A DNA stretch of 64,000 nt, from positions 224,661 through 288,660 of the forward strand of contig NZ_LMNA01000029.1 in assembly GCF_001422445.1 (NCBI RefSeq). Direction: 5' to 3'. Below are positions 26,322 through 58,019 of this stretch, in pieces. The stretch's first letter is position 1, and each line of letters opens with the position of its first letter. Under the pieces are notes generated by a model, which saw nothing but the letters and a program-made list of their open reading frames with translations, ran no database searches and was not told the DNA's origin. Source of the stretch: Pseudorhodoferax sp. Leaf274 (GTDB lineage Bacteria; Pseudomonadota; Gammaproteobacteria; Burkholderiales; Burkholderiaceae_C). The translations under genes and the position numbers were made by a program.

Positions 26322-26336
26322 AATGGTTGCACCATT
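26322..26336. promoter_or_regulatory. GntR-type operator AATGGTTGCACCATT (site a) and promoter
   Basis: Perfect 6-bp arms with a 3-bp spacer. On the minus strand the -10 CATAAT (26334-26339) overlaps the operator and the -35 TTTCCA lies at 26357-26362 (17-bp spacer). Binding would block transcription of the ACAD fusion gene. The GntR gene at 26480 is adjacent and divergent. Confidence 0.65.
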
Positions 26337-26479
26337 ATGACGACAACAGACGGCAATGGAAACAGTGCACGCAGGGCCTCGTCATATCATGCGGACCCCA
26401 CGTCCCAGTGGTCGGCGCCATGCGATCGTTCTCGCGCCATTCATTCCATGTGTTCTCGCGCCCAAGAGGGAGTAGTCCA

Positions 26480-27346
26480 GTGCCCCGTTCCAAAATCGAC
26501 AGTGCCGCGGCCGACGCCGCGCCGAAGGCCGAGCCGTCCGCATCGTTCAGCGCCATCAAGTCGGCGCGCGCCTTCGAGGAGATTGCCACGCAGATCCGCG
26601 ACGAACTGATCGCCGGGCGCCTCAAGGTCGGCAGCCGCCTGCCGGCCGAGCGCGCCTTGTCGGAACAGTTCGGGGTGTCGCGCAACACCTTGCGCGAGGC
26701 ACTGCGCTCGCTCGAGCATGCCGGGCTGATCCGCCTGCAGAAGGGCGCCAGCGGTGGCGCCTTCATCAGCGAACGCAGCGGACAAGCCATCGTGACGGGC
26801 CTGCTGGACATGTACCACGTCGGCGCCATCCAGCCGGCCCAGCTGACGGAGGCGCGGATCTGGCTCGAATCGGTGATCGTGCGCGAAGCCTGCGTGCGCG
26901 CCACGCCGCAAGACCTGGAGCTGCTGCACCACAACATCGAGGAGGCCGCCCAGGCCAATGCGCAAGGCAACTTTCCGCTGCGTGCGCAAAAGCACCTGGA
27001 GTTCCACCGCATCCTGGCGCGCATGACCGGCAACCCCATCATGGTGATCATGATGAACGGCATGCTGGACGTGCTGCAGCACTTCATCAATTCCATCGGC
27101 GACTACAGCAACGTCTTCGTGCTGCCGTCGCGCCGCCGGTTCATGAAGCACATGGAAGAGGGCAACGTGGCCGCCGCAGTCGAGGAGATGGAAACCAGCC
27201 TCAAGCGCCTGCAGCGCAGCTACCTGTCGCGTGTGGAAGTCAAGGCCGATGCCGCGGCCGCCGCGGCGGAGGTGGCCGCGACGGCGCCGTCGCCGGTGGG
27301 CAGGAGCGCCAGGACGGCGCGCAAGACGCGCGCCGAACCTGGTTGA
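26480..27346 (+). CDS. GntR-family (FCD) transcriptional regulator
   Basis: A 288-aa protein with an N-terminal winged HTH (ERALSEQFGVSRNTLREALRSLEHAG) and an FCD effector domain that includes the LEFHRILARMTGN metal/ligand histidine region; a positively charged Ala/Arg tail follows. The GTG at 26480 is preferred since AAGAGGGAG lies 7-8 nt upstream; an earlier in-frame ATG at 26420 has no clear site. It is divergent from the ACAD fusion gene and followed by a strong terminator and a second operator (27458-27472). It is a strong candidate for binding the TGGT-N3-ACCA operators. Confidence 0.85.
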   Translation: MPRSKIDSAAADAAPKAEPSASFSAIKSARAFEEIATQIRDELIAGRLKVGSRLPAERALSEQFGVSRNTLREALRSLEHAGLIRLQKGASGGAFISERSGQAIVTGLLDMYHVGAIQPAQLTEARIWLESVIVREACVRATPQDLELLHHNIEEAAQANAQGNFPLRAQKHLEFHRILARMTGNPIMVIMMNGMLDVLQHFINSIGDYSNVFVLPSRRRFMKHMEEGNVAAAVEEMETSLKRLQRSYLSRVEVKADAAAAAAEVAATAPSPVGRSARTARKTRAEPG

Positions 27347-27380
27347 ACCGACGCACCCGACGCGCTGCCCCAGCGCCCCG

Positions 27381-27408
27381 GCCAGCCGCTTGCGGCTGGC
27401 TTTTTTTT
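27381..27408 (+). terminator. Rho-independent terminator of the GntR gene
   Basis: GCCAGCCGC-TT-GCGGCTGGC (27381-27400) forms a perfect 9-bp stem followed by eight T residues (27401-27408). It lies 34 bp after the GntR stop codon. It is the clearest intrinsic terminator in the window. Confidence 0.9.
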
Positions 27409-27422
27409 GCACGCGGCACGCG

Positions 27423-27452
27423 TTGACAAGCATCGTCGTCGGCGCATAACAT
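27423..27452 (+). promoter_or_regulatory. Promoter of the CaiB-Bug operon
   Basis: A consensus -35 TTGACA (27423-27428) with a -10-like CATAAC (27445-27450) or TAACAT (27447-27452), spacer 16-18 bp. The predicted start point near 27458 coincides with the GntR-type operator at 27458-27472, so a bound repressor would block initiation or clearance. Confidence 0.6.
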
Positions 27453-27457
27453 TCGTC

Positions 27458-27472
27458 AATGGTTGGACCATC
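27458..27472. promoter_or_regulatory. GntR-type operator AATGGTTGGACCATC (site b)
   Basis: ATGGT-TGG-ACCAT inverted repeat directly over the predicted start point of the CaiB-Bug transcript (27594-29812). Same class as the other nine sites in 26-58 kb. Confidence 0.65.
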
Positions 27473-27593: not shown

Positions 27594-28802
27594 ATGCCCC
27601 AGACCCCCCCCGACCGTCCCGGCATCCTCGATGGCGTGCGCGTCATCGACTTCACGGCCATGATGTCCGGCCCCTACGCCACGCGGCTGCTGGCCGACAT
27701 GGGCGCCGAGGTCATCAAGATCGAGCCGCCCGAGGGCGACCACATCCGCAGCCGGCCGCCGCGTCGCGAGGGCCACAGCACCTATTTCGCGCAGCTCAAC
27801 TGCGGCAAGAAAAGCCTGGCGCTGGACCTCAAGAAGAAGTCCGCCGTCGCGCTGGTCAAGCAGCTGGTGGCGACCGCAGACGTGCTGGTCGAGAACTACC
27901 GCCCGGGTGTCATGCAACGCCTGGGGCTGGACTACGCCACGCTGTCGGCGCTCAACCCCAAGCTCGTGTACTGCTCCATCTCGGGCTTCGGCCAGACGGG
28001 CGAGTGGGCCGGGCGCAGTGCCTACGCACCGGTGCTGCACGCGGCCTGCGGCTTCGACCTGGCCAACCTGGGCTACCAGGACGGCATCGAGCGGCCTTTG
28101 AAGAACGGCATCTTCATCGCCGATGTGCTGGGCGGTTCGCTGGCCTTCGGCGCGATCCAGGCGGCGCTGCTGCGCGCTGCGCGCACCGGGCAAGGCGACC
28201 AGGTCGACCTGTCGTTGATGGACGCCATGGTGGGCATGCTGGTCTATGAATGCCAGGAGGCGCAGTTTCCCGCCGAACGCCGGCGCCCGCTGTACCAGCC
28301 CACCAAGGCGAGCGACGGCTTCCTGCTGATCGCGCCCGTGAGCCAGAACAACTTCGAGGCCATGGCGCGCGTGGCCGGCCATCCGGAATGGATTGCCGAT
28401 CCGCGTTTTGCCACCATCCATGCGCGCGAACACCACTGGGGCGAACTCATGGCGCTGCTGGACGACTGGGCCGCCAGCCGCACGGCAGCGCAATGCGAAG
28501 AGGCGATGAACGCGGGCGGCGTGCCCAGTTCGCGCTACTTCAACATCCGCGAGGCCATGCAGCTGCCACCCGTCGCCGGGCGCGGCGCGCTGCAGACGAT
28601 CCACGACGGAGCCGGCGCGTTCCAGGTGCCCAACCCTGCATTCCGCTTCCACCACACGGCGGCACATGCGCGCGACAGCGTGCCCGAACTCGGCGCGGAC
28701 GGTCCGGCGCTGCTGCAATCGCTGGGGCTGGGCGAAGCCGAGATCGAAGCCCTGTGCGCCGAAGGCGCCGTGCACTGGTGCGCGCCCGCCGAGCAGGCCT
28801 GA
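27594..28802 (+). CDS. CaiB/BaiF CoA-transferase (family III)
   Basis: A 402-aa family III CoA-transferase. The N-terminal DFTAMMSGPYATRLLADMG and GADMGAEVIKIEPPEGD regions and the aspartate in VDLSLMDAMVG (position of the CoA-accepting Asp in formyl-CoA transferase) are conserved. Such enzymes transfer CoA between carboxylic acids, or epimerise 2-methylacyl-CoA. ATG 27594 follows a weak GAGAGA site. The Bug gene follows after 29 bp. Likely activates the imported acid as its CoA thioester. Confidence 0.8.
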   Translation: MPQTPPDRPGILDGVRVIDFTAMMSGPYATRLLADMGAEVIKIEPPEGDHIRSRPPRREGHSTYFAQLNCGKKSLALDLKKKSAVALVKQLVATADVLVENYRPGVMQRLGLDYATLSALNPKLVYCSISGFGQTGEWAGRSAYAPVLHAACGFDLANLGYQDGIERPLKNGIFIADVLGGSLAFGAIQAALLRAARTGQGDQVDLSLMDAMVGMLVYECQEAQFPAERRRPLYQPTKASDGFLLIAPVSQNNFEAMARVAGHPEWIADPRFATIHAREHHWGELMALLDDWAASRTAAQCEEAMNAGGVPSSRYFNIREAMQLPPVAGRGALQTIHDGAGAFQVPNPAFRFHHTAAHARDSVPELGADGPALLQSLGLGEAEIEALCAEGAVHWCAPAEQA

Positions 28803-28831
28803 ACCGCCCCCACGACAACGAGGAGACCGAC

Positions 28832-29812
28832 ATGCATCCCCATCCGCTACGGCGCCGCGGCGCCCTGGTCCTGCTCGCGGCTGCCGCCGCGCTGCCCGCC
28901 TGGGTGGCGGCACAGAACTTCCCCAGCCGACCCATCACCATCGTCGTGCCGTACCCGCCGGGCGGCACCACCGACGTGCTGGCGCGCGCGCTGCAAGACC
29001 CGCTGCAAAAACTGCTGGGCCAGCCGGTGATCGTGGAGAACCGGCCGGGCGCCTCGGCCATGCTGGGGGCCAAGCTGGTGGCGCGGGCCCCGGCGGACGG
29101 CTACACGCTGCTGTTTCCCAACAACGGGCTGGTGATCTCCCCGCACATCACCCGGGATGCGGGCTACGCGCCGTTGACCGACTTCGCGCCGGTGTCGCTG
29201 GTGTCGCTGCAGCCCATGGTGCTCGTGGTCAACCCGTCCGTGCCGGCCAGGACGCTGCCGGAGTTCATCGCCTACGCCCGCGCCAACCCCGGGAAGATCA
29301 ACTACGCCAGCGCCGGTCCGGCCTCGTTCGGCCACCTGGCCACCGTGCAGTTCGCGCGGGCGGCGGGCCTGGCGCTGGAGCACATTCCCTACAAGGGCCA
29401 GGCGCCGACCACGCAGGCGGTGTTGTCCGGCGAGGTGCAGATGCTGCTGTCCACCAGTTCGGCCCAGATGAACGCCTTCATCAAGGAAGGCCGGGTGCGG
29501 TTGCTGGGCGTCAGCTCGGCGCAGCCGTCGCCGCTGGTGCCGGGCGGCGTGCCGATCGCCCAGACCCTGCCGAACTTCCAGGCCGATGTCTGGTTCGGGT
29601 TGTTCGCGCCGGCCGCCACGCCCAAGGACGTGGTCGCGCGGCTGAACGATGCCATCGGCAAGGCGCTGCAGCAGCCGGAGTTGCGGGCCCGCTTCGAAAC
29701 CGCGGGCGGCCTGCCTGTGGGCAGCACGCCCGAGCAGATGAAGGCGCGCATCACCCAGGAGTCCGAGGGCTGGGCCGCCATCATCAAGGACGCCAACATC
29801 AAGGAAGAGTGA
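28832..29812 (+). CDS. Bug-family tripartite tricarboxylate transporter substrate-binding protein (3 of 7)
   Basis: A 326-aa periplasmic protein with a signal peptide of about 27 residues (ends WVAAQN), then PSRPITIVVPYPPGG and QPVIVENRPGASA. ATG 28832 is preceded by AGGAG. It follows the CaiB gene in a two-gene transcript controlled by site b. TctA/TctB genes are absent. A capture role for the regulon's acid substrate is inferred. Confidence 0.85.
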   Translation: MHPHPLRRRGALVLLAAAAALPAWVAAQNFPSRPITIVVPYPPGGTTDVLARALQDPLQKLLGQPVIVENRPGASAMLGAKLVARAPADGYTLLFPNNGLVISPHITRDAGYAPLTDFAPVSLVSLQPMVLVVNPSVPARTLPEFIAYARANPGKINYASAGPASFGHLATVQFARAAGLALEHIPYKGQAPTTQAVLSGEVQMLLSTSSAQMNAFIKEGRVRLLGVSSAQPSPLVPGGVPIAQTLPNFQADVWFGLFAPAATPKDVVARLNDAIGKALQQPELRARFETAGGLPVGSTPEQMKARITQESEGWAAIIKDANIKEE

Positions 29813-29853: not shown

Positions 29854-30672
29854 TCAGCGTGCGCCGGCCTCGGGTGCCGGCCCGAAGCCGGTGTAGGGCG
29901 GCGGCCGCTTGGCCAGCATGGCCGCGACCGCCAGCCGCGGTTCCGGCGCCGCGAAGGCTGCGCCCTGGCTGTTCGCCTCCAGCGTGAACATGGTGTGCTG
30001 GTCGGAATCCAGCGACGCGTTGAGCGCCGCCTTGGTCAGGCCCAGCGCGGTCGGCGATGCGTGCGTGAGCCGCAGGGCGATGTCGCGGGCGCGCGCCTCG
30101 ATGTCGTCGCTGGCGTGCACTTCCATCACCAGGCCCATCGCGCGGGCCTCCTCGGCATCGAGTTCGCGCGCCGAGAAGATCAGCTCCTTGGCGCGCTGCA
30201 GGCCCACCATGCGCGGCAGCAGGTAGGTCGGCCCGAGGTCGGGCACCACGCCCAGCTTGAGGTAGGACATGGCGAACCGCGCCTGTGGCGAGGCCAGCAC
30301 GATGTCGGCCGTCAGCGCGAGCGTGAAGCCGGCGCCGAAGGCCGGCCCGTCCACCACCGCGATCAGCGGGCGCGTCAGGTGCAGCAGGTCGTTGATCAGG
30401 CGCAGGCCCGACTGCAGGCGCTGCTGCCAGTAGGCCGGCCCGGCGTCGAGCTGCTCCTGGATGAACTGCAGGCTGCCGCCCGCGCAGAACGCGCCGGGCG
30501 TCCCCGCGAGCACCACCACCCGGATGCCGAGGTCGGCGCGCACGCGGTCCAGCACCTGGATCAGGTCTTCGCGCAGTTCGCTGTCGAACGGGTTGCGCTT
30601 CTTCGGCCGGTTCAGGCGGATCCAGCCGATGCCGTCTTCCACCGTGAAATCGAGGGTTTGCAATTGCAGCAT
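29854..30672 (-). CDS. Enoyl-CoA hydratase/isomerase (PaaG-like)
   Basis: A 272-aa crotonase-fold protein. The oxyanion segment GAFCAGGSLQFI is present. In place of the two glutamates of hydratases it has FGAGFTLALTAD and LKLGVVPDLGPTYLLPR, where an aspartate occupies the second site as in PaaG-type isomerases. It therefore probably moves a double bond rather than hydrating it. It is the last gene of the leftward operon after the thiolase-like and DUF35 genes (8 bp gap). The partner ECH at 34246 shares the VPDLG motif. Confidence 0.7.
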   Translation of the reverse strand: MLQLQTLDFTVEDGIGWIRLNRPKKRNPFDSELREDLIQVLDRVRADLGIRVVVLAGTPGAFCAGGSLQFIQEQLDAGPAYWQQRLQSGLRLINDLLHLTRPLIAVVDGPAFGAGFTLALTADIVLASPQARFAMSYLKLGVVPDLGPTYLLPRMVGLQRAKELIFSARELDAEEARAMGLVMEVHASDDIEARARDIALRLTHASPTALGLTKAALNASLDSDQHTMFTLEANSQGAAFAAPEPRLAVAAMLAKRPPPYTGFGPAPEAGAR

Positions 30673-30680
30673 GCGCGACC

Positions 30681-31079
30681 TCACGCGGGCGTGAACATGG
30701 GCACCGCGCCGCCGCCTTCGGCCGGCTTGAAGCAGACCTGCACGCGCTGGCCGATGCGCAGCGCATCGAGATCGCAGTCGACGATGTTGGTCAGCATGGT
30801 CACGCCCTCGTCCAGCGTCACGTAGGCGATCGCATAGGGGATGGGGCCGGCGCGGCGCGTCACGCTCACGCTGTAGATGGTGCCGGCGCCCTTGGTGTCT
30901 TCCCACGCGGTGTCGCCCATGCAGAACGGGCACACCGGCCGCGGGTACCAGTGCGGCTTGCGGCAGTCCGTGCAGCGGCGCAGCCGCAGCACGCCGTCCC
31001 GGGCGCCTGCGAAGAATGGTTCGGTCGCCGCGTCGATGGCGTTGGCCGCGAGCGGCCGGTCCTGGTGCATCGTGGTCAT
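30681..31079 (-). CDS. DUF35 OB-fold protein with zinc ribbon
   Basis: A 132-aa protein with an N-terminal zinc ribbon (CTDCRKPHWYPRPVCPFC, two CxxC pairs) and a C-terminal OB fold. DUF35 proteins partner thiolase-like enzymes, for instance in steroid side-chain retro-aldolases (Ltp2) or 3-hydroxyacyl-CoA-binding complexes. The gene lies directly after the thiolase-like gene (31085-32251). ATG 31079 has GGGAG upstream; a GTG at 31088 that overlaps the preceding stop is an alternative. It likely forms a complex with the thiolase-like protein. Confidence 0.75.
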   Translation of the reverse strand: MTTMHQDRPLAANAIDAATEPFFAGARDGVLRLRRCTDCRKPHWYPRPVCPFCMGDTAWEDTKGAGTIYSVSVTRRAGPIPYAIAYVTLDEGVTMLTNIVDCDLDALRIGQRVQVCFKPAEGGGAVPMFTPA

Positions 31080-31084
31080 CGTGT

Positions 31085-32251
31085 TCACTCCCGTTCCATG
31101 ATCAGTGTGGCGCTGCCGTGGCGCGAGCCCAGCAGGCCGCCCGTGCCTTGGGCCAGTGCCAGCGCGCAGCCCGGCACCTGCACCTTCGGATGGGCTTCGC
31201 CGCGCAGCTGGCGCACCGCCTCGATCACCTTGGTGATGCCGCCGCGGTTGGCCGGATGGTTGTTGCACAGGCCGCCCCCGTCGGTGTTGAAGGGCAGCCT
31301 GCCCACGCCCGAGATCAAGTTGCCGTCGGCGACGAAGCGGCCACCTTCGCCCTTCTTGCAGAAGCCCAGGTCTTCCAGCTGCATCAGCACGGTGATGGTG
31401 AAGCTGTCGTAGATCGATGCGTACTGGATGTCTGCCGGCAGCACGCCGGCTTCCTCGAAGGCGCGCGGGCCGGACAGCGCCGCGCCCGACCAGGTCAGGT
31501 CCACCTGTCCACCGAGCTGGCCCTTGATGGTCTCGCCGGCGCCCAGCACGTTGACCACGGGCCGCTTCAGCGCGCGGGCGATCTCCGGGCGCGTGACCAC
31601 GAGCGCGCCACCGCCGTCGCTGACGACGCAGCAGTCCAGCTTGCGCAGCGGGTCGCTGATCATCGGGGAGGCCAGCACGTCCTCCACGGTGACCACGTCG
31701 CGCAGCATGGCGTGCGGATTGTGCTGCGCATGGGTGGAGGCGGCCACCTTGATCCAGGCCAGTTGCTCGGCGGTGGTGCCGTACTCGTGCATGTGCCGCG
31801 CCGCCGCCAGCGCGTACATGTTGACGGTGACGGGACCGTACGGCATCTCCCAGGGCACGTCGGGCGTGCCCGCGGCCACGATGCGCGGCGCCACGCCGGT
31901 GGAGCCTTCGCTGCGCGGGCGCCCGGCCAGCGTGATCAGGGCGACGTTGCACTTGCCCATGGCGATGGCCTGGGCTGCGTGGGCGACATGGATCAGGTAG
32001 GCCGAACCGCCGGTGTCGGTGCTGTCCACATGGCGCAGTTTCAGGCCCAGGTAGTCGGCCATGCTGTTGGCGCCCAGGCCCGGCGCATCGCCGGCGCAGA
32101 AGTACCCGTCCACGTCCTGCAGCGTGAGGCCGGCGTCAGCCAGCGCACCGCGCGCGCATTCGGCATGCAGTTGGGCGACGGTCTTGTCGGGCGCCTTGCG
32201 GGTGGGGTGTTCGTAGGCGCCGGCGATGCAGGCGCGTCTGCGGATGGTCAT
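31085..32251 (-). CDS. SCP2-type thiolase-like protein (lacks usual catalytic Cys)
   Basis: A 388-aa thiolase-fold protein. The nucleophile-cysteine region of true thiolases is replaced here by DSTDTGGSAYLIHV, without Cys. The late histidine region is altered, NTDGGGLCNNHPANRGG, and EAVRQLRGE follows as in the Ltp2-like set. The companion DUF35 gene is next downstream. This pattern suggests a retro-aldolase or CoA-binding scaffold rather than thiolytic activity. It starts the leftward operon controlled by site c (32292-32306); ATG 32251 is the clearest start. Confidence 0.7.
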   Translation of the reverse strand: MTIRRRACIAGAYEHPTRKAPDKTVAQLHAECARGALADAGLTLQDVDGYFCAGDAPGLGANSMADYLGLKLRHVDSTDTGGSAYLIHVAHAAQAIAMGKCNVALITLAGRPRSEGSTGVAPRIVAAGTPDVPWEMPYGPVTVNMYALAAARHMHEYGTTAEQLAWIKVAASTHAQHNPHAMLRDVVTVEDVLASPMISDPLRKLDCCVVSDGGGALVVTRPEIARALKRPVVNVLGAGETIKGQLGGQVDLTWSGAALSGPRAFEEAGVLPADIQYASIYDSFTITVLMQLEDLGFCKKGEGGRFVADGNLISGVGRLPFNTDGGGLCNNHPANRGGITKVIEAVRQLRGEAHPKVQVPGCALALAQGTGGLLGSRHGSATLIMERE

Positions 32252-32263: not shown

Positions 32264-32293
32264 TTGACGTTGGAACGCCGTTGATCGTATCAT
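32264..32293 (+). promoter_or_regulatory. Promoter of the SDR-DUF7064-ECH-MaoC operon
   Basis: -35 TTGACG (32264-32269), 18-bp spacer, -10 TATCAT (32288-32293). The GntR-type operator at 32292-32306 begins at the end of the -10 and covers the predicted start point. Confidence 0.55.
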
Positions 32294-32306
32294 TGGTTCT
32301 ACCATC
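32292..32306. promoter_or_regulatory. GntR-type operator ATTGGTTCTACCATC (site c)
   Basis: TGGT-TCT-ACCA inverted repeat in the 69-bp region between the divergent thiolase-like and SDR operons. It overlaps the -10 end of the rightward promoter and could control both directions. Confidence 0.65.
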
Positions 32307-32320: not shown

Positions 32321-33103
32321 ATGTCCTCTGCCGCTCCCATCGTCTCGCTCGAAGGCCGCACCGTGGTTGTCACCGGTGCCGGACAAGGCATCGGCAAGGC
32401 TCTTGCGGAACTGACCATCGCGCTCGGCGGCAACGTGGTCGCCGTGGACCTCAACGGCGAGACCTTGCAGGCCGCGCTGGCCCCCCTGCCGCAGGACCGC
32501 GTGCTGGCCGTGGTCGGCAGCGTCGTCGACGCCGACCTGGCGGCACGCGCGGTCTCCGACGCCGTGGCGCGCTTCGGCGCCGTGCACGGGCTGGTCAACA
32601 ACGCCGGCATCACGCGCCCGGCCATGATCGACAAGATGACCGCCAGGCAGTGGCAGGACGTCATCGACGTGCACCTGACCGGCACCTTCTTCTGGACGCA
32701 GGCCGTGGGCCGCCACATGCTGGAGCGCGCCAAGGGCGGCGACCGGACGGGTGGCTCCATCGTCAACATCTCGTCGGACGCAGGGCGCAAGGGCTCCATC
32801 GGCCAGATCAACTACGCCGCGGCCAAGGCCGGCATGCTGGGCATGACCATGACCGCTGCGCGCGAGTGGAGCAAGCACAACATCCGCAGCAACTCGATCT
32901 GCTTCGGTGTCGTGGAGACGCCCATGACCGAAGTGGTGCGCGGCGAGAAATTCCGCGACGGGATGCTGGCGCAGATCCCGATGGGCCGCTGGTCGACACC
33001 TGAAGAGGTGGTCAAGACCGTGTGTTTCCTGCTGTCCGACGGCGCCAGCTACGTGACCGGGCAGCACCTGGCGGTCAACGGCGGTTTCCACATCAGCCTG
33101 TGA
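32321..33103 (+). CDS. Short-chain dehydrogenase/reductase (3-hydroxyacyl-CoA type likely)
   Basis: A 260-aa classical SDR: TGAGQGIGKALAE cofactor loop, LVNNAGITRPA, catalytic serine in NISSDAGRKGS, and INYAAAKAGM for the YxxxK. AAGGAA lies 6 nt before the ATG. It heads a rightward operon with a DUF7064-like gene, an ECH and a MaoC hydratase. A 3-hydroxyacyl-CoA dehydrogenase or a dehydrogenase of the substrate side chain is plausible. In the Lva comparison it could play the LvaD-like role, but that is speculation. Confidence 0.8.
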   Translation: MSSAAPIVSLEGRTVVVTGAGQGIGKALAELTIALGGNVVAVDLNGETLQAALAPLPQDRVLAVVGSVVDADLAARAVSDAVARFGAVHGLVNNAGITRPAMIDKMTARQWQDVIDVHLTGTFFWTQAVGRHMLERAKGGDRTGGSIVNISSDAGRKGSIGQINYAAAKAGMLGMTMTAAREWSKHNIRSNSICFGVVETPMTEVVRGEKFRDGMLAQIPMGRWSTPEEVVKTVCFLLSDGASYVTGQHLAVNGGFHISL

Positions 33104-33202
33104 CGGTGCAGCCAGGCGTTGGACTGCTGGCCGCGTGCGCGTGCGCGACGGCCGGGTCCGCGCCGCCGCACCGACCCATGGCCTGAACCCAAGGAGACCC
33201 GG

Positions 33203-35055: not shown

Positions 35056-35067
35056 ACGGGCTTTCCC

Positions 35068-50165: not shown

Positions 50166-51157
50166 GGCGCGGTCTCCAGCAGGTGCATGAAGTCCCAGAG
50201 CGGTTCTTCCAGCCGGCGGCCGACGGCGCAGAGCTCCAGGCTGGCGGGGCGGCCGTCGGCGCGCGCACCCAGCCCGCGGCGCACGCACGCGATGGCCCAC
50301 TTGAGGTTGCCGAAGGCCTCCCAGAAGCGCACGCGCGCCGGGTCCACTGGCATACCGCCGGCGGCTTCGTAAGCGGCGTACAGGTCCTCGCGCGTGCCGA
50401 AGCCGCCGACCTCGCCGGTTCCTCCGAAACGCCAGGTGCGCATGCACAGCACACCCAGGTCCTGCATCGGGTCGCCGATGCGCGCGATCTCCCAGTCCAG
50501 CACGCAGCGCAGGCCCTGCTGGTCGACGATCAGGTTGCCGTTGCGGAAGTCGGCGTGCACCACCCGCGCATCCCATTGCTGCGGCAGGTGCTGGCCGACC
50601 CAGCGCAGGGCGTAGGCCAGCGCCGGATGGGCGATGGCGTGGTCGCGCAGCAGGCCGCCGTAGATCGCCAGTTCGTCGGCCGGCGCGAGCCGGGCCAGGA
50701 AGGGCAGCTCGGCCGTCGGCATGCGGTGGATGGCGGCCAGGGCCTCGCCGCACTGGCGGGCGAGCCGCCCGCGTGCCATGGCGAAGGCGCTGTCGCGGGC
50801 CAGCTTGCGGCCCATGGTCTCCCCGGCCACGTGCCCGGTGACGTAGCCCGGCCCCAGGCCGTGCTGCGGCTGCAGCACCAGCCGCACCGTGGGCACCGGC
50901 ACGCCGCCCTGGCGGGCCGCGCGCATGAGCGCGGCGTCCTGCCCGGCGTCCAGCCGGGGCGGATGGCCCGGCGGCGCGGCCGTGGCAGCCGAGCGTTGCA
51001 GGATCAGCGTCCCGCTGGTGCCGGGCTGGTGCCAGTCGAAGCACCAGGTCTCCTTCGTGGCGCCGCCGGTCAGGCGGCGCAGGCCGCGCACCTCGCCCGC
51101 CGGCCCGGCGCCGCGCAGCGCAGCCGCCAGCGCGGCCTCGATCTCCGCGGGCTGCAT
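50162..51157 (-). CDS. Phosphotransferase/aminoglycoside-kinase-fold protein (LvaA-like hydroxyacyl-CoA kinase)
   Basis: A 331-aa APH-fold kinase. Brenner motif VVHADFRNGNLIV (catalytic Asp and Asn) and DWEIARIGDP are intact. The N-terminal GGATKETWCFDW is the glycine-rich nucleotide loop. Related kinases (ACAD10/11 N-terminal domains, LvaA) phosphorylate 4-hydroxyacyl-CoA. It sits 8 bp after the ligase gene and overlaps the DUF6285 gene. Function inferred from this conserved neighbourhood. Confidence 0.7.
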   Translation of the reverse strand: MQPAEIEAALAAALRGAGPAGEVRGLRRLTGGATKETWCFDWHQPGTSGTLILQRSAATAAPPGHPPRLDAGQDAALMRAARQGGVPVPTVRLVLQPQHGLGPGYVTGHVAGETMGRKLARDSAFAMARGRLARQCGEALAAIHRMPTAELPFLARLAPADELAIYGGLLRDHAIAHPALAYALRWVGQHLPQQWDARVVHADFRNGNLIVDQQGLRCVLDWEIARIGDPMQDLGVLCMRTWRFGGTGEVGGFGTREDLYAAYEAAGGMPVDPARVRFWEAFGNLKWAIACVRRGLGARADGRPASLELCAVGRRLEEPLWDFMHLLETAP

Positions 51158-51165
51158 GCCGGCGT

Positions 51166-52695
51166 TCAAATGCTGCGGCCGGCGCCTTGCCAGAACGGCT
51201 CGCGCAGGCGACGCTTGAAGATCTTGCCGCTGTCCTCGCGCGGCAGCGCGGCGTGGAAATCGATGCGCCGCGGCAGCTTGTACTTGGCCAGCCGGGGCGC
51301 GAGGTAAGCCCGGATGTCCTCGGCCGTCAGCGTGGCATCCGGCACGGCCTGGACGGCCGCGGCCAGGGATTCGCCGAACTCGTCGTCGGGAATGCCGAAC
51401 ACCGCGCAGTCCTGCACGCCGGGGCACTGCAGCAGCACCATCTCGATCTCGGCAGGGTAGATGTTGGTGCCGGCGGAGATGACCATGTCGGACCGGCGGT
51501 CGCACAGGTACAGGCGTTCGTCCTTCAGGTAGCCGACATCGCCGCAGCTGATCAGCCCGTCGCGTTCGACACCCGCGCGCTTGGCTTCGTGGTTGAGGTA
51601 GGTGAAGTCGGCATAGGCCGGAACGCGCATGTAGATCTCGCCGATCTCGCCCGTGGGCACGGGCCGGCCGTCCTCGCCATAGAACGCGATGCGCGTGCCC
51701 GGCGTGGGCACGCCGACGCTGCCGGGGTGGGCCAGCCAGTCCTGCGGCGTGGCCAGCGTGGCCGTGCCGACCTCCGAGCCGCCGTAGGTTTCGTAGACCA
51801 CGGGGCCCCACCATTCCATCAACGCCTTCTTGACCTCCACGGGGCAGGGCGCGCCGGTGTGCGTGACCCAGCGCAGCGAGCTCACGTCGTAGCGCGCGCG
51901 CACCCCGGCCGGCAGCTTCAGCAGCCGCACGAACATGGTGGGCACCATCACGGCGTGCGTCAGCCGGTGCCGGGCGATCAGGGCCAGCGTTTCCTCGGGG
52001 TCGAACTTGGACTGCAGCACCAGCACATCGGCGTTGGGCAGCGCCTGGCGGCCATAGGCGTTGGGCGAGGCGTGGTAGAGCGGGCCCGCCACCAGCGCCC
52101 GCACGCCGGGCGTCACGCCGTACACGCTGGCGATCAGCGCGACATAGGCGGCCGCCTGCTCGGGCGTGGCCGCTTCGCGTTTGACACCCTTGGGGTGGCC
52201 GGTGGTGCCCGAGGTGTAGATCATGGTCGCGCGGCTGCGCTTGGGCGGACCGTCCCAGGGGCTGAAGCCGGCGCACCAGTCGTCCCAACGCAGGTCGCCC
52301 GGCTGCGGCTGCGCCAGCGCCTCGGAGATGCCGTAGCGTTGCTGCACCTCCGGCGGCGTGGGCACCACCAGCAACCGCAGGCCGGCGGGCAGCTGGCCGC
52401 GCAGCGGCGCGACCAGATCGGCATGGGCCACCAGCACCTTGGGCCGGGCGTCGCCGAGCACGTACAGCACCTCCTCGGGCTTGCCGTGCCAGTTGATGGG
52501 GACGCAATAGGCACCGAGCGCGGCGGCGGCCTGCTGGCCTTCGAAGAAAGCGAAGTCGTTGCGCAGCAGCAGGGCGACGAAGTCGCCTTCGCCGACGCCC
52601 AAGGCGTCGAAGCCGGTGGCGGCGCGGCGGGCCTGCAGCAGCACGGCATCGCGCGCCACGGCGCGGTCGTCCAGGTAGATCAGCGGGGAATCCAT
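51166..52695 (-). CDS. AMP-forming acyl-CoA synthetase
   Basis: A 509-aa ANL-family ligase. AMP/ATP motif YTSGTTGHPKGVKRE, the adenylate-forming ETYGGSEVG motif, the hinge/ribose-binding Asp in CDRRSDMVISAGTNIYPAEIE and the late catalytic lysine in REDSGKIFKRRLRE are all present. It begins the operon that continues with the kinase-like, DUF6285, ACAD and Bug genes. It likely activates a hydroxy- or keto-acid to its CoA thioester. Site h (52714-52728) lies 19 bp upstream of the ATG. Confidence 0.85.
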   Translation of the reverse strand: MDSPLIYLDDRAVARDAVLLQARRAATGFDALGVGEGDFVALLLRNDFAFFEGQQAAAALGAYCVPINWHGKPEEVLYVLGDARPKVLVAHADLVAPLRGQLPAGLRLLVVPTPPEVQQRYGISEALAQPQPGDLRWDDWCAGFSPWDGPPKRSRATMIYTSGTTGHPKGVKREAATPEQAAAYVALIASVYGVTPGVRALVAGPLYHASPNAYGRQALPNADVLVLQSKFDPEETLALIARHRLTHAVMVPTMFVRLLKLPAGVRARYDVSSLRWVTHTGAPCPVEVKKALMEWWGPVVYETYGGSEVGTATLATPQDWLAHPGSVGVPTPGTRIAFYGEDGRPVPTGEIGEIYMRVPAYADFTYLNHEAKRAGVERDGLISCGDVGYLKDERLYLCDRRSDMVISAGTNIYPAEIEMVLLQCPGVQDCAVFGIPDDEFGESLAAAVQAVPDATLTAEDIRAYLAPRLAKYKLPRRIDFHAALPREDSGKIFKRRLREPFWQGAGRSI

Positions 52696-52713: not shown

Positions 52714-52728
52714 AATGGTAGTACCAAA
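52714..52728. promoter_or_regulatory. GntR-type operator AATGGTAGTACCAAA (site h)
   Basis: TGGT-AGT-ACCA inverted repeat 19 bp before the start of the ligase gene. An additional half-site AATGGTAG follows at 52728-52735. A clear promoter could not be placed, though GATATC bases lie near the start point. Confidence 0.6.
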
Positions 52729-52880: not shown

Positions 52881-54026
52881 TCACATGCGCACGGCCCATG
52901 CGTCCGCGAGCCGGGCGGCCTGGGCCGCGCTGTCGCCGAACAGCTGGTCCAGCACATGGATGCGCCGCAACGCGTGGCCGACGGCGTACTCCTCGGTCAT
53001 GCCGATGCCGCCGTGGATCTGCACCGCGTTCTGGCACAGCTGCCGGGCATGCCGGCCGATCACCAGCTTGGCGCGCAGCAGGTCGGCCGCGGATTCGGAG
53101 GCATCCGGCCGGTCGGCCGCGATGGCCGCGGCCATGGCCATGCTGCGCGACATCTCCAGGCCGACCTGCATCTCGGCGGCCTTGTGGCGCAGCGCCTGGT
53201 TCTGGCCGATCAGCCGGCCGAACTGCTGGCGCGTGTTCAGGTACTCCACGGCGAGTTCGAAGGCCAGCTCCATGGCGCCCAGCATGTCGGCGCACACGGC
53301 CGCCAGGCCGGCGTCGAGCGTGCCCTGCAGTGCGACACGGGCGCGGGCGTCGTCGCGCGGGTCGCCGAGCGGCTGGGCGGCGACGCCGTCCAGCACCAGC
53401 TCGGCGGCAGGCGTGTCGTCCACGAGGCGGTAGCCGCGGCGCTGCTGGCCGGCCGCTTGCGCGTCGACCACGAACAGCGCGATACCGGCCTCGGCATCGG
53501 GCGCACCGTCGGTGCGCGCGGTGACCACGAGATGGTCCGCGCTCTGGCCGTGCAGCACATGGCGCTTGCGTCCGGTCAGCGTCCACTGGCCAGCGTGCTG
53601 CGTCGCCTGGGTTGCCACCCAGCAGGGGGCATGGCGCGCGTCTGCCTCATCGTGCGCCCAGGCCAGCAGCAGCCGGCCGGCGGCGGCGGGCGCGAGCAGG
53701 CGCGCCTTGGCGGCGGCATCGCCGGCCAGTTGCACGGCCGTGGCGCCCAGCACGCTGGACGACAGCACCGGCTCCAGCAACAACGCGTGGCCGCAGGCCT
53801 GCAGCACCGGCAGCCGGTCGACCGCGCCGCCGCCGAAGCCACCGTGGGCTTCGTCCACGCACAGCGCGGTGACGCCGAGCTCGGCCAGGTGCCGCCACAG
53901 GCTGCGCTGGAAGCCGTCGGCCGTGGCGGCGGCTGCCCGCCGTTGCTCGAAGCGGCCATGGTCGGCCAGCAGGCGGCGCACGCTGTCCTGCAGCTGCGCC
54001 TGCTCGTCAGTGGGTTCGAAGTTCAT
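52881..54026 (-). CDS. Acyl-CoA dehydrogenase, beta-like subunit
   Basis: A 381-aa ACAD-fold protein. It lacks the usual C-terminal EGTxEIQ motif; the C-terminal part reads IHGGIGMTEEYAVGHALRR. It is 18 bp downstream of the ACAD gene at 54045-55205, which has the GTSEVQ motif. Actinobacterial steroid degraders use such unlike pairs (ChsE4/E5-like, alpha2-beta2 heterotetramers), one subunit binding FAD and the other part of the active site. The same pairing is inferred here. Confidence 0.75.
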   Translation of the reverse strand: MNFEPTDEQAQLQDSVRRLLADHGRFEQRRAAAATADGFQRSLWRHLAELGVTALCVDEAHGGFGGGAVDRLPVLQACGHALLLEPVLSSSVLGATAVQLAGDAAAKARLLAPAAAGRLLLAWAHDEADARHAPCWVATQATQHAGQWTLTGRKRHVLHGQSADHLVVTARTDGAPDAEAGIALFVVDAQAAGQQRRGYRLVDDTPAAELVLDGVAAQPLGDPRDDARARVALQGTLDAGLAAVCADMLGAMELAFELAVEYLNTRQQFGRLIGQNQALRHKAAEMQVGLEMSRSMAMAAAIAADRPDASESAADLLRAKLVIGRHARQLCQNAVQIHGGIGMTEEYAVGHALRRIHVLDQLFGDSAAQAARLADAWAVRM

Positions 54027-54044
54027 CTGTGCGTTCTTTCCGTG

Positions 54045-55205
54045 TCAGCCCAGCAGCGTCTTGGCCAGGATGTCTTTCTGGACCTCGCTCGTGCCGCCGT
54101 AGATCGAGGCCGCGCGCGAGTAGAAATAGCGCGGCACCAGGGGACCGGCGCCCGGGTCGTCCAGCGGGCGGCGTTCCAGCCCGGCGGGGCCGGCCAGGCG
54201 GGCCAGCAGGGCGGCGATGTCCTGCTGGAGCTCCACGCCCTTGAGCTTGAGCACGGACGCGAAGCTCGGCAGCGCCTCGCGCGCGCTGTCGGTCAACAGA
54301 AAGCGCCAGTTGGTGATTTCCAGCGCGCGGATCTCCGCGTCCAGGGTGGCGAACTCGCTCCGCAGCTGGGGCGAGTCGATCAGGCGGTGGTGGCCGTCGC
54401 GGGTCGTCTCGGCGATCTCGCGCGCGAAGTCCAGCCGTTCGCGGCACAGGCCGACGTTGGCGATGCCGGTGCGCTCGTTGCCCAGCAGGAACTTGGCGCA
54501 GTTCCAGCCCTTGTTTTCCTCGCCCACGAGATGTCCGACCGGTACCCGCACCTCGTCGAAGAAGACTTCGTTGAGATGGTGGTCGCCATCCAGCGAGACG
54601 ATGGGGCGGATCGTGACGCCCGGGGTCTTCAGGTCGATCAGCAGGAAGGAGATGCCCTCCTGCTTGCGCGCCTGGCTGTCGGTGCGCACCAGCGCGAACA
54701 CCCAGTCGGCCATGTGCGCCGTGGTGGTCCAGATCTTCTGGCCGTTGACGATGTAGTCGTCGCCCTCGCGCCGCGCCGCGGTGCGCAGCGAGGCGAGATC
54801 GGAGCCCGAACCGGGTTCGGAGAAGCCCTGGCAGAACCACAGGTCGAGGTTGGCCAGCTTGGGCAGGAAGAAGTCGCACTGCTCGGGCGTGCCGAATTTC
54901 ATAAGCACGGGGCCGAGCATGGTCACGTTGAACACCTGGGGCAGCGGCGCGGGCGCGCGGTAGAGCTCGTCCATCAGGATCAGGCGCTCCATCTGGCCCA
55001 GTTCGGCGCCGCCGTAGCGCCTGGGCCAGTGCGGCGCGGCCCAGCCGCGTTCGTTCAGGATGCGCTGCCAGGCCACGGTGTCCTGCTTGCGCGGGGGGTG
55101 GCCCAGGCGCAGGCGTTGGCGGATGTCGTGCGGCAGGCGCTGCTGCACGAAGGTGCGCACCTCGTCGCGGAACGCCTCCTGCGCGGGGCTCAGGTTCAAG
55201 TCCAT
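54045..55205 (-). CDS. Acyl-CoA dehydrogenase, alpha-like subunit
   Basis: A 386-aa ACAD: FSEPGSGSDLASLRTAARRE FAD/substrate region, W-rich NGQKIWTTTAHMADW and C-terminal IYGGTSEVQKDILAKTL, with glycine at the usual catalytic-Glu place, as in ChsE4/FadE26-type enzymes. It heads a two-gene operon with the beta-like gene (18 bp apart). Operator i (55255-55269) overlaps the -35 (TTGAAC, 55259-55264) of its predicted promoter with -10 TACACT (55236-55241, minus strand). Confidence 0.8.
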   Translation of the reverse strand: MDLNLSPAQEAFRDEVRTFVQQRLPHDIRQRLRLGHPPRKQDTVAWQRILNERGWAAPHWPRRYGGAELGQMERLILMDELYRAPAPLPQVFNVTMLGPVLMKFGTPEQCDFFLPKLANLDLWFCQGFSEPGSGSDLASLRTAARREGDDYIVNGQKIWTTTAHMADWVFALVRTDSQARKQEGISFLLIDLKTPGVTIRPIVSLDGDHHLNEVFFDEVRVPVGHLVGEENKGWNCAKFLLGNERTGIANVGLCRERLDFAREIAETTRDGHHRLIDSPQLRSEFATLDAEIRALEITNWRFLLTDSAREALPSFASVLKLKGVELQQDIAALLARLAGPAGLERRPLDDPGAGPLVPRYFYSRAASIYGGTSEVQKDILAKTLLG

Positions 55206-55235: not shown

Positions 55236-55264
55236 AGTGTATCGGCAATGATGTATAGGTTCAA
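55236..55264 (-). promoter_or_regulatory. Promoter of the ACAD pair operon
   Basis: -35 TTGAAC (55259-55264), 17-bp spacer, -10 TACACT (55236-55241). The -35 lies in operator i. The geometry is the same as at the MDR promoter (site j). Confidence 0.6.
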
Positions 55265-55269
55265 CCAAT
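55255..55269. promoter_or_regulatory. GntR-type operator ATAGGTTCAACCAAT (site i)
   Basis: Inverted repeat with one arm mismatch (AGGT). It is nearly the reverse complement of site j (ATTGGTTCAACCTAT). It overlaps the -35 of the ACAD pair promoter and lies upstream of the GntR gene at 55346. Confidence 0.65.
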
Positions 55270-55345: not shown

Positions 55346-56173
55346 ATGCCCGATTCCAAAGATGCTTCCGCCACCGTGACGACCGGCGGGCCGGTGTTCC
55401 AGCCGGTGCGCACGCGCCGAACGTTCGAGGCGGTGTGCGACGAGATCCGCCGCCAGATCTCCAATGGAACGCTGCAGCCGGGCCACCGGCTGCCCGGCGA
55501 GCGGGAACTGGCCGAGCAGTTCGACATCAGCCGCAGCGGCGTGCGCGAGGCGCTGCGCAGCCTGGAGGTGGCCGGCCTGGTGGAGGCACGCACCGGTGTG
55601 CATGGCGGCTTCTTCATCAACACCCGCCAGCCCGAAGGCCTGGCCCAGGCCGTGCGCGACATGGTGTCGCTGGGCCAGATCCCAACCACCAGCGTGACCG
55701 AGGCGCGCATCGAGCTGACCTGCGTCGCGATCCGGCTGGCCTGCCAGCGTGCCACGGACGCGGAGTTCGACGCCATCGAGGCCGACATCGATTTCCACGC
55801 GGCGCTGTTCCGCGAAGGCGGCGGCTCGCGCAACACGCGCTCGGTGGGCGAGTTCTACCGCCTGCTGGCACGCGCCACGCACAACGACGTGATCGTGATG
55901 CTGGTCGACGCGCTGTCGGAGATCGTGCGCAGCCTGCTGGCGCGCATCGACCCCAAGCCGCGCGAGGACATCATCCAGGTGCGGCGCAAGGTCCTGCGCC
56001 ACCTGCGCGCGCGCGATGCGGACAAGGCCTGCGCCGCGATGGCCGAGCACCTCACCAACCTGAACGACTATTTGGAAGAGCAAAGCCGCGCACGCGCGGC
56101 GGCGGCGGCGTCGGCGGCAGCGGCGGCGTCAGCGGCGCCTCGGCGTGCGTCGCGCCGCACGCCGCGCGGCTGA
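55346..56173 (+). CDS. GntR-family (FCD) transcriptional regulator
   Basis: A 275-aa regulator: HTH ELAEQFDISRSGVREALRSLEVAG and an FCD domain around the NDVIVMLVDALSEIVRSLLARI region, with an Ala/Arg-rich tail. ATG 55346 is used; a GTG at 55325 is an alternative start, and neither has a strong ribosome site. It is divergent from the ACAD pair, with operator i between, and near site j. Likely a repressor of these operons or the whole set. Confidence 0.85.
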   Translation: MPDSKDASATVTTGGPVFQPVRTRRTFEAVCDEIRRQISNGTLQPGHRLPGERELAEQFDISRSGVREALRSLEVAGLVEARTGVHGGFFINTRQPEGLAQAVRDMVSLGQIPTTSVTEARIELTCVAIRLACQRATDAEFDAIEADIDFHAALFREGGGSRNTRSVGEFYRLLARATHNDVIVMLVDALSEIVRSLLARIDPKPREDIIQVRRKVLRHLRARDADKACAAMAEHLTNLNDYLEEQSRARAAAAASAAAAASAAPRRASRRTPRG

Positions 56174-56182
56174 AGGTCGCGT

Positions 56183-56953
56183 TCAGCGGCCCGACCAGAC
56201 CGGCGCGCGCTTCTCGAAAAAGGCGCGCAGGCCTTCCTCGAGGTCGTCGCTGCCGCGGATGGATGCCAGGGCCTGCTCCGTGGCCTGCCAGCCGGCCGCA
56301 TCGGCCAGTGCCAGCAGGCCGTTCATCGCCCCCAGGCATGCCTGTACCGACAAGGGCGCATTGGCGGCGACCTGGGCGGCCAGTGCCTGCGCCTTCACCA
56401 GCGCGTGCCCGGGCTCCGCGAGATGGTTCACCAGGCCCAGCGCGTGGGCACGCGCTGCGGCCATGGGCTGGCCGGCCAGCACCAGCTCACGCGCGATGTG
56501 CGGCGGCAGCGCCTGCAGCGCTCGGAACAATGCGCCGCAGGTGGGCAGCACGCCGCGCTGCACTTCCGGCAGGCCCAGCCGTGCGTTGTGTGCCGCCACC
56601 ACCATGTCGCAGGCCAGGGCGATCTCCAGCCCGCCACCGAGGGCCATGCCTTCGACGGCTGCGATGAGCGGCTTGCGCCGCTGGCGGCGGATGATGCCGT
56701 ACTCGCCGCCGCGGGCGGTGACGTAGTCGCCGCGCGACGCCAGGTCGCTGCCCGCGCAGAAGACCGAAGGGCCGCCGTAGAGCACCCCCACGCGCAGGTC
56801 CGCGTCATCGTCCAGGGTGTTCAGCGCCGCGTCCAGTGCATCGGCCAAGGCACGGTCGACGGCGTTGCGCTTGTGCGGGCGGTGCAGGGTGATGGTCCAG
56901 ACCGCGCCGTCGCGCGCGGTGTGGACGGTGTCGGCCAGGTCGGGTGCGGGCAT
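56183..56953 (-). CDS. Enoyl-CoA hydratase (canonical)
   Basis: A 256-aa crotonase-fold hydratase. It retains both glutamate positions (GGGLEIALACD and LGLPEVQRGV), so hydration of an enoyl-CoA is likely. The oxyanion segment is VFCAGSDLASRG. It follows the MDR gene by 6 bp on the minus strand and converges with the GntR gene. Operator j controls this two-gene transcript. Confidence 0.8.
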   Translation of the reverse strand: MPAPDLADTVHTARDGAVWTITLHRPHKRNAVDRALADALDAALNTLDDDADLRVGVLYGGPSVFCAGSDLASRGDYVTARGGEYGIIRRQRRKPLIAAVEGMALGGGLEIALACDMVVAAHNARLGLPEVQRGVLPTCGALFRALQALPPHIARELVLAGQPMAAARAHALGLVNHLAEPGHALVKAQALAAQVAANAPLSVQACLGAMNGLLALADAAGWQATEQALASIRGSDDLEEGLRAFFEKRAPVWSGR

Positions 56954-56959
56954 TGGGGC

Positions 56960-57931
56960 TCAAAAGGTGATGACGACGCGGCCGATGCCGTTGCGGTCCT
57001 GCGCGTGCTCTGCGGCCTGTGCGAAACACGCGACCGGCAGGACACAGCGCAGCACGGGGCAGATGCGCCCCTCCGCGAACCAGCGGATGCACTCGCGCAG
57101 GAGAGCGTCTGCGCGACCGGGCTCGCGCTCGCCGTACTGGCGCACGTCGACACCGACCAGCGCTGCCCCCTTGACGATGGACAGGTTGGTCTTGAGTGCA
57201 CCGATCTCCCCGCCGGCGAAGCCGATCATCAGATGGCGGCCGCCCCAGCCCAGGGTGCGGAACGCCGTGTCCGTGGCCGCACCACCGACCGGGTCGAACA
57301 CCAGGTCCACCCCGCGCGGCCCTGCCTGGCGCTTCACCATGTCCTTCCAGTCGCTGCCGCTGTCGATCACCGCATCGGCACCCGCGGCGCGGACGGCGGC
57401 GCGTTTGGCGTCGGTCGAGGCCAGGGCCAGCACGCGTGCGCCCAGTTGCTTGCCGATCTGCACTGCCGCGTGGCCCACGGCGCCGGCGGCGCCCAGCACG
57501 AGCAGCGTGTCGCCGGCCCGGATGCCACCGCGCTCGCGCAGCGCGTACAGCGCGGTGTAGGCCGAGGCCGTGGCGACGGAAGCGAGCGCCGGGTCGGTGC
57601 CCGGCGGCAGTTCGTGCACGCGCGAGGCGGGCGCGCAGACGTACTCCGCCCAGGCGCCCTGGCGCGTGCCGCACACCAGGTCGCCGGGAACGAGGCCCGT
57701 CTCGGTGTCGGGGCCGATGGCATCGACCACGCCGGCGTATTCGCTGCCGGGGATGAACGGTGGGGTGGGGCGCACCTGGTAGGCGCCGCGTGCCAGCAGC
57801 AGGTCGACGTAGGAGATGCCGCTGGCCTGCACGCGCACGCGCACCTCTCCGGCTCGCGGCACGGGCTGTGCGATGTCGCGCACGGTGATGTGGTCGTCGG
57901 GACCGTAACCCAGGACTTGCAAGGCTTTCAT
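56960..57931 (-). CDS. MDR-family zinc-free quinone oxidoreductase-like enzyme
   Basis: A 323-aa medium-chain dehydrogenase/reductase with the NADPH-binding ALGAAGAVGHAAVQIGKQLGA region and no Zn-ligand cysteine cluster. It resembles QOR/enoyl reductase-type enzymes. It begins the two-gene transcript with the hydratase. Predicted promoter: -35 TTGAAC (58009-58014) and -10 TAGCAT (57986-57991) on the minus strand, with operator j over the -35. It may reduce an enoyl-CoA or an unsaturated carbonyl. Confidence 0.8.
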   Translation of the reverse strand: MKALQVLGYGPDDHITVRDIAQPVPRAGEVRVRVQASGISYVDLLLARGAYQVRPTPPFIPGSEYAGVVDAIGPDTETGLVPGDLVCGTRQGAWAEYVCAPASRVHELPPGTDPALASVATASAYTALYALRERGGIRAGDTLLVLGAAGAVGHAAVQIGKQLGARVLALASTDAKRAAVRAAGADAVIDSGSDWKDMVKRQAGPRGVDLVFDPVGGAATDTAFRTLGWGGRHLMIGFAGGEIGALKTNLSIVKGAALVGVDVRQYGEREPGRADALLRECIRWFAEGRICPVLRCVLPVACFAQAAEHAQDRNGIGRVVITF

Positions 57932-57985
57932 GCGGGTGTGCGCACCGGGCGGTCTGCCGGGCGGCGTGGCGTGGAAGGGGGATAC

Positions 57986-58014
57986 ATGCTAGACCAGAAA
58001 AATAATTGGTTCAA
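57986..58014 (-). promoter_or_regulatory. Promoter of the MDR-hydratase operon
   Basis: -35 TTGAAC (58009-58014), 17-bp spacer, -10 TAGCAT (57986-57991) on the minus strand. The -35 lies in operator j. Confidence 0.6.
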
Positions 58015-58019
58015 CCTAT
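58005..58019. promoter_or_regulatory. GntR-type operator ATTGGTTCAACCTAT (site j)
   Basis: Inverted repeat with one arm mismatch (ACCT), nearly the reverse complement of site i. It overlaps the -35 of the leftward MDR promoter and abuts the -35 TTGACT (58019-58024) of a rightward promoter with -10 AACATT (58042-58047) for the Bug/thiolase/FadB-like operon. Confidence 0.65.

Follow-up and report, generated by a model that had tools for sequence, protein, structure and literature searches.

The closest described counterparts of the system considered here belong to the FadR subfamily of GntR transcription regulators. Three proteins encoded in a 64,000-nucleotide stretch of Pseudorhodoferax sp. 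Leaf274 (contig NZ_LMNA01000029.1, positions 224,661 to 288,660; the whole stretch is called the window below), named GntR-A, GntR-B, and GntR-C, have in common with this subfamily an N-terminal GntR winged helix-turn-helix (HTH) and a C-terminal FCD domain, as detected with Pfam. The element in question is a palindrome, AWTGGTTSAACCAWT, with the refined core WWTGGTTSAACCAWW (the predicted binding sequence is also given as AATGGTTCAACCATT), which recurs in the intergenic gaps of a catabolic gene block and is very probably the operator of GntR-A, a regulator that would repress the whole block until released by a pathway catabolite. Judged by sequence only, the sites fit the TKGT-N3-ACMA consensus of the subfamily (PMC4494728). 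The main text of that survey does not mention acyl-CoA, Burkholderia, or Bordetella, and the regulon could stand in its supplementary site lists under another name.

Two described regulators are particularly suitable for comparison. The box recognized by PdhR of Escherichia coli is AATTGGTnnnACCAATT, its centre being written nnn (PMC7660256). PdhR and the present system share the GntR HTH and an operator of the form TGGT-N3-ACCA with A/T flanks, whereas the centre of the operator in the block is constrained (T-S-A in 59 of 110 distinct sites) and its targets form one clustered catabolic block. KstR of Mycobacterium, a TetR-family repressor, acts through one palindrome, represses its own gene, and has 83 and 74 genes predicted as targets (PMC1995591). 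KstR and the block share their layout, a single repressor with a single palindrome in front of many catabolic units (here 12 sites in nine intergenic gaps over 38 kb, with 42 genes), but KstR is not a GntR/FCD protein, its operator is different, its regulon is larger, and it serves the use of lipids and cholesterol. An earlier note on this DNA had described the regulon as unusually dense, a wording that the larger catabolic regulons controlled by KstR temper (PMC1995591).

The AlphaFold model of GntR-A (mean predicted local distance difference test score, pLDDT, of 83) has an all-helical C-terminal part and matches the GntR/FCD structures 2di3, 6az6, 6on4, and FadR in Foldseek. The fold is shared with CGL2915 of Corynebacterium glutamicum (2di3, E 4.1e-10) and with NanR (6on4, E 1.5e-9), both among the best structural matches, whereas sequence identity to GntR-A is only 24-25%. 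The metal-binding subgroup of FCD domains uses an Asp and three His residues as ligands. Compared with this ligand set, GntR-A keeps the FH histidine and has an arginine in place of the EHR histidine, which is common to GntR-B and 2di3, and the last His varies among relatives. Linkage to pyruvate dehydrogenase genes and their control are the hallmark of PdhR, and the Pfam scan found no pyruvate dehydrogenase family among the 42 genes of the block. The type of regulator, the operator class, and the layout are familiar, being those of a local regulon of a FadR-subfamily GntR protein, while the particular regulator and regulon are without a description found: the open-access literature, with subscription journals and RegPrecise outside that search, yielded none of the regulator, the operator, or the block, in agreement with the earlier view that the regulon is undescribed.

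Operator sites and their clustering

All ten palindromes reported earlier for the window are present. Two of them match AWTGGTNNNACCAWT exactly, seven differ from it at one position, and one differs at two, so that calling them near-identical was slightly generous. The first, AATGGTTGCACCATT (26322..26336), lies in the divergent gap between the gene of a fused acyl-coenzyme A (acyl-CoA) dehydrogenase (minus strand) and gntR-A (plus strand); AATGGTTGGACCATC (27458..27472) is found upstream of the CoA-transferase/Bug1 unit, and ATTGGTTCTACCATC (32292..32306) in the divergent promoter region of thiolase 1 and SDR1. An exact match, AATGGTTGGACCAAT (37273..37287), provides the acyl-CoA dehydrogenase gene ACAD1 (36104..37240, minus strand) with an operator of its own. 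The Rieske/Bug3 region carries TGTGGTTCTACCAAT (45465..45479), followed by ATTGGTAGAGCCAAT (45489..45503) and by ATTGGTTCAACCAAA (45571..45585), the last of these near the start point of the Bug3-NMO unit. Further along, AATGGTAGTACCAAA (52714..52728) is placed 18 bp upstream of the ligase start, ATAGGTTCAACCAAT (55255..55269) in the divergent ACAD4/gntR-C promoter region, and ATTGGTTCAACCTAT (58005..58019) in that of the dehydrogenase and Bug5. Two more sites are located just past the window end, at 64337 and 64443 in window numbering. Paired operators at a spacing of 106 bp (45465/45571 and 64337/64443) at first looked suggestive of looping, but this was rejected, as pairs in relatives are from 14 to ~110 bp apart.

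On a gene map built from codon usage, with putative unit boundaries, all 12 sites are noncoding, as had been claimed for the original ten; noncoding DNA makes up 5.6% of 24069-70366. The window contains ten matches at up to two mismatches, whereas 100 dinucleotide shuffles gave 1.22 on average and never more than 5. A scoring matrix was made from the 12 sites of the source genome; the scores of these sites are circular because they are the sites from which it was made, and other genomes are independent of it except for the close relative G318. In a scan of 92 kb the 12 sites reach a score of 17, and no site of at least 17 occurs in window positions 1-24000 or in the 21.7 kb past the block. When restricted to the 20 gaps (2450 bp), the scan gives 12 sites, while 300 dinucleotide shuffles gave 0.01 on average and never more than 1. 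The sites follow gene orientation: all six divergent gaps of the block have at least one, as do three of ten same-strand gaps of at least 30 bp, and none is present in the four convergent gaps within the block or in the one at its right end. The seven site-free same-strand gaps can be read as operon-internal.

The same clustering is seen across the 6.74-Mb genome, where the loose pattern with up to one mismatch matches both strands in 20 places, 12 of them being the cluster sites, in 0.6% of the genome; 20 further places, all outside the cluster, match one strand only. With the refined core at up to one mismatch, all six matches in the source genome are in the cluster, as are seven of eight in G318, and four other genomes of the same genus, with no GntR-A match at E <= 1e-60, have 0, 0, 2, and 1. 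The earlier proposal of a FadR-subfamily operator and a local regulon holds up in this whole-genome scan. Among the related genomes listed, exact WWWGGTNNNACCWWW falls in the cluster in 7 of 9 cases in G318, 8 of 10 in G177, 7 of 8 in G122, 10 of 13 in G320, 2 of 3 in G097, 2 of 2 in G158, and 2 of 4 in G053; G387 has 26 copies with only 7 within the cluster stretch, and G115 has none.

The outside copies of G387 are spread over contigs C1, C4, C12, C23, C34, C37, C38, and C39, and 15 of the 19 are centred on CNG (GGTCNGACC), in contrast to the clustered GGTTSAACC set; their regulator is possibly another FadR-type protein that prefers a different centre. In the source genome, a related palindrome, ATTGGTCAGACCACT, is found at C4:46261-46275, just upstream of another GntR paralog (C4:46319-46987), as if this gene were autoregulated through it.

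The position of the sites is also conserved. Comparison of ten related clusters reveals a site no more than 320 bp upstream of 45 of 66 orthologs of unit-heading genes and of 17 of 127 internal genes; without G318, the counts are 32 of 53 and 17 of 104 (Fisher p 4e-8). The best-kept sites are those of the Rieske oxygenase (8/8, with one or more sites), ACAD4 (7/7), thiolase 1 (5/5), and SDR1 (5/5).

Co-occurrence of the palindrome with GntR-A

The region contains, as noted earlier, three GntR/FCD genes: gntR-A (26480..27346, plus strand; Pfam GntR 1.4e-19, FCD 2.2e-17), gntR-B inside the Rieske unit (42337..43092, minus strand; GntR 1.2e-14, FCD 1.3e-22), and gntR-C, a paralog of gntR-A with 33% identity (55394..56173, plus strand; GntR 3.9e-20, FCD 4.2e-18). 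The earlier note had left open which of them binds the sites; the evidence gathered here points to GntR-A, which tracks the palindrome and is the proposed repressor of the whole block. In a sample of 399 family genomes, orthologs of GntR-A (E <= 1e-60) are present in 11 and those of GntR-C (E <= 1e-55) in 8, all of them among the 11. Of these 399 genomes, 23 contain the exact core, namely 9 of 11 with GntR-A (24 copies) versus 14 of 388 without it (15 copies), and two or more copies are found in 6 of 11 versus 1 of 388. In the 40-80 kb fetched around GntR-A, the ten genomes other than the source have 11, 10, 3, 12, 11, 3, 15, 8, 2, and 2 sites scoring at least 17; the sites of G122 in this stretch scan, and the exact sites of G255, are those among the matches listed.

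A second comparison was based on the best 80 of 534 loci from named genomes, fetched via the peptide patterns [GR]VSRNTLRE and ALR[ST]LEHAG in a scan with a GntR-A alignment. Thirty of them, with at least 47% identity, were taken as GntR-A relatives (including a fragment, L096, which has no site), and the other 50, among them L073 with 39% identity and one good site, served as controls. A site is carried by 29 of the 30 relatives (68 sites in 530 kb), compared with 4 of the 50 more distant loci (4 sites in 890 kb). After symmetric permutation of the matrix columns, 11 of 12 matrices gave 0-3 matches in the 30 loci; the remaining one, probably a near-identity swap of A/T columns, gave 66. The genes around GntR-A vary between loci (12 of 30 viewed). 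In the small Binataceae/deltaproteobacterial loci L059, L060, L061, and L065, the distance from the beginning of a perfect AATGGTTGAACCAAT to the downstream gntR-A match is 88-106 bp, and no GntR-B or GntR-C match is present within the stretch fetched.

The recognition helix, VSRNTLRE, is the same in all eight family GntR-A proteins found by whole-protein search, whereas the corresponding sequences are ISRSGVRE in GntR-C and VGRNAVRE in GntR-B. Its invariance among the named loci is partly built in, since these were fetched by helix patterns; the family result is free of such ascertainment, and the exact-core count over 399 genomes provides a family-matched control. In the subfamily survey, TGGT and A/T next to the centre are associated with a wing Gly and with an Asn following SR (PMC4494728), and the residues and operator of GntR-A, mapped by eye by ourselves, agree with these correlations.

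A possible, though clearly less probable, arrangement is that the operator serves GntR-A and GntR-C together, through competition, heterodimers, or two effectors, with the block integrating two signals. Both genes are in the block with a site beside each of them, their products are 33% identical, and GntR-C is found only together with GntR-A (8 of 399 genomes). All 7 of 7 orthologs of ACAD4, which is divergent from gntR-C here, have the site, and so do 4 of 7 upstream regions of gntR-C; moreover, the DNA-binding domain of GntR-C is related to that of GntR-A and could share its operator, which speaks against GntR-A as the sole regulator. However, GntR-C is not needed for the sites to exist: in 25 of 36 sources the stretch fetched lacks a close GntR-C (at least 55% identity over 200 residues), and each of these 25 carries a site. 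The recognition helices of the two proteins differ, and operator centres are not significantly different according to the presence of GntR-C (47 TSA and 52 other versus 27 and 16, p 0.10). A division into two operator classes, TGGTWGGACCA for GntR-A and TGGTTSAACCA for GntR-C, was also considered and rejected, as perfect TSA sites occur in loci with GntR-A only and the centre class is not tied to GntR-C by the same comparison.

Position of the sites within promoters

A simple promoter scan of 35 kb identified four sigma-70-like promoters (~1.4 expected), each of them either lying across an operator or ending 5 bp ahead of it. The -10-like CATAAT of a minus-strand promoter match overlaps site 26322..26336, and the match TTGACG-18-TATCAT overlaps site 32292..32306, whereas TTGACA-18-TAACAT and TTGACG-17-CACAAT stop 5 bp short of sites 27458..27472 and 45571..45585, respectively. 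The arrangement extends to 114 sites from 33 sources, a set that still includes related sequence pairs and from which L046, L050, L056, and L057, being the same genomes as G053, G177, G122, and G255, were left out, as they were from the centre-class counts. Of 117 TTGAC words within 150 bp of a site, 52 start in the 14-bp stretch 42-29 bp upstream of its centre, and 47 of the 114 sites have TTGAC at -44..-31 on at least one side. In 57 of 88 promoter matches the -10 box ends at -20..-1 relative to the site centre, most often 5-6 or ~13 bp ahead of it, in two narrow registers. In the first register, the -10 box closes with the AAT or AT of the operator, TATAATGGTTGAACC being an example; the -10 counts are partly built in by this double role, and the -35 counts are without that bias.

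With the operator built into the promoter, repression by promoter occlusion is indicated. GntR-A, as a GntR/FCD repressor of the FadR subfamily, would recognize the palindrome, and a dimer on each site, covering the -10 box or the start point, would block RNA polymerase at about 15 units comprising 42 genes. GntR-A would then be released by some pathway catabolite, perhaps a CoA thioester or a carboxylate, so that the acid-degradation block would be switched on as a whole, with GntR-C presumably acting as an auxiliary paralog.

Several observations weigh against this assignment. No promoter match of at least 8/12 was found beside sites 37273 and 52714, and for 45489, 55255, and 64337 the operator falls, by the sole match, on the -35 box or the spacer; a dimer on sites of this kind would still cover the promoter, the classic place of a repressor. 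Autoregulation is not universal, a site being found no more than 320 bp upstream of gntR-A in only 2 of 8 related clusters and no more than 300 bp upstream of the gntR-A match in 11 of 25 named loci tested, and only 1 of 6 AMPlig1 orthologs has one. G097 and G115 have no exact core despite the presence of GntR-A, and the only sites of G115 are two weak ones (17.0 and 17.5). Conversely, 14 family genomes, for example G112 (two copies), G029, and G031, have the exact core without a GntR-A match; these sites may be due to chance or to other FadR-type regulators. Finally, most of the 50 control loci belong to other phyla, and they were fetched by the same patterns. Helix-based fetching weakens one argument, and the family-matched control strengthens another.

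The remaining alternatives fare considerably worse. That the sites serve an activator is improbable: some GntR proteins, FadR among them, also activate, but activators normally sit further upstream, whereas the sites, where a promoter is recognizable, mostly overlap the -10 box or the start, in the two narrow registers downstream of TTGAC words. Control of the palindrome by GntR-B is even more doubtful. It is a GntR/FCD protein of the block, with orthologs in 5 of 10 related clusters compared, yet 29 of 36 sources have sites and no close GntR-B in the stretch fetched. Its VGRNA region, with N where GntR-A and GntR-C have G, fits TTGT better than TGGT, with the caveat that the Asn trend in the survey is not significant and that the residue mapping is our own (PMC4494728). 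An origin in chance, base composition, or repeats of another kind can be practically dismissed. The palindrome does belong to a common operator class, with AWTGGTNNNACCAWT found exactly in 39 of 150 family genomes, but the shuffle controls, the genome-wide clustering, and the association with GntR-A contradict such an origin.

The catabolic block and its proposed regulation

The block extends over 46 kb (24069-70366, ending outside the window) and comprises 42 called genes, all scanned against Pfam, in about 15 transcription units according to our own grouping by strand and spacing. The families present are acyl-CoA dehydrogenases (one a fused double), class III CoA-transferases, thiolases with two OB-fold partners, enoyl-CoA hydratases, MaoC, SDRs, acyl-CoA ligases, two APH-type kinases, DUF6285, a Rieske oxygenase with its reductase, and TctC/Bug binding proteins. 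With this content the block looks like a pathway for the breakdown of an organic acid.

Its left end is formed by the fused double acyl-CoA dehydrogenase (24069..26303, minus strand), one protein of 744 residues with two dehydrogenase units. After gntR-A follow, on the plus strand, the class III CoA-transferase CoAT-1 with the TctC/Bug binding protein Bug1 (27594..29812); on the minus strand, thiolase 1, a ChsH2-like OB-fold protein, and an enoyl-CoA hydratase (29854..32251); on the plus strand, SDR1, DUF7064, an enoyl-CoA hydratase, and MaoC (32321..35934); and, after ACAD1, a minus-strand unit of eight genes for the Rieske oxygenase, its reductase, GntR-B, Bug2, CoAT-3, thiolase 2, OB-fold 2, and CoAT-2 (37314..45400). 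Bug3 and a nitronate monooxygenase-like protein (NMO) form the next plus-strand unit (45600..47563), which is followed on the minus strand by a unit of acyl-CoA ligase, APH-type kinase, DUF6285, acyl-CoA dehydrogenase, and Bug4 (47653..52695) and by the acyl-CoA dehydrogenase pair ACAD4 and ACAD3 (52881..55205). Beyond gntR-C lie a zinc-type alcohol dehydrogenase-like gene with an enoyl-CoA hydratase gene (56183..57931, minus strand), the unit of Bug5, thiolase 3, and a FadB-like protein (58125..62269, plus strand), and an acyl-CoA dehydrogenase with a nitroreductase-like protein (62394..64000, continuing to 64296 past the window end, minus strand), after which operators 64337 and 64443 follow. 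To the left of the block, 20956-23169 (minus strand) would encode a 737-residue protein without a Pfam family, in a frame that was chosen by codon usage alone and may be wrong.

Several proteins of the block may bear on its substrate. The Rieske oxygenase (44078-45400) has 7fhr as its closest solved structure (Protein Data Bank, E 6.1e-192), and thiolase 2 with its OB-fold partner (38405-40032) is closest among solved structures to 6ok1, a lipid-transfer protein (E 3.3e-73 for thiolase 2) which we take to be a retro-aldolase. This likeness suggested steroid catabolism, which was rejected after a search for HsaA: the source genome has no match above the cut-off, the best reaching 62.5 versus 450 bits. 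The ligase, APH-type kinase, DUF6285, and dehydrogenase at 48659-52695 presumably recall the logic of levulinate LvaABCE, with phosphorylation of a 4-hydroxyacyl-CoA.

A regulator, an operator, and about 15 target units can be proposed in this way for one catabolic system. GntR-A is also found in records titled Variovorax, Pseudacidovorax, Acidovorax, Cupriavidus, Bradyrhizobium, and Piscinibacter sakaiensis, as well as in Binataceae metagenome-assembled genomes. We can tentatively speculate that TTGACA-N17-TATAATGGTTSAACCAWT (~40 bp) is a portable promoter-operator cassette, by which GntR-A would have captured differing acyl-CoA catabolic modules, each headed by the cassette, the clusters growing by accretion under a single switch and GntR-C being a later duplicate that added a second signal; the genomes on which this reading draws are Comamonadaceae-like, Bradyrhizobium, Cupriavidus, and Binataceae-labelled. 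The proposed regulon gives a handle on the substrate, through a derepression screen, and a means of telling which of the many acyl-CoA genes in these genomes belong together, and the overlap of the operator with the -10 box suggests how new operons could join it.

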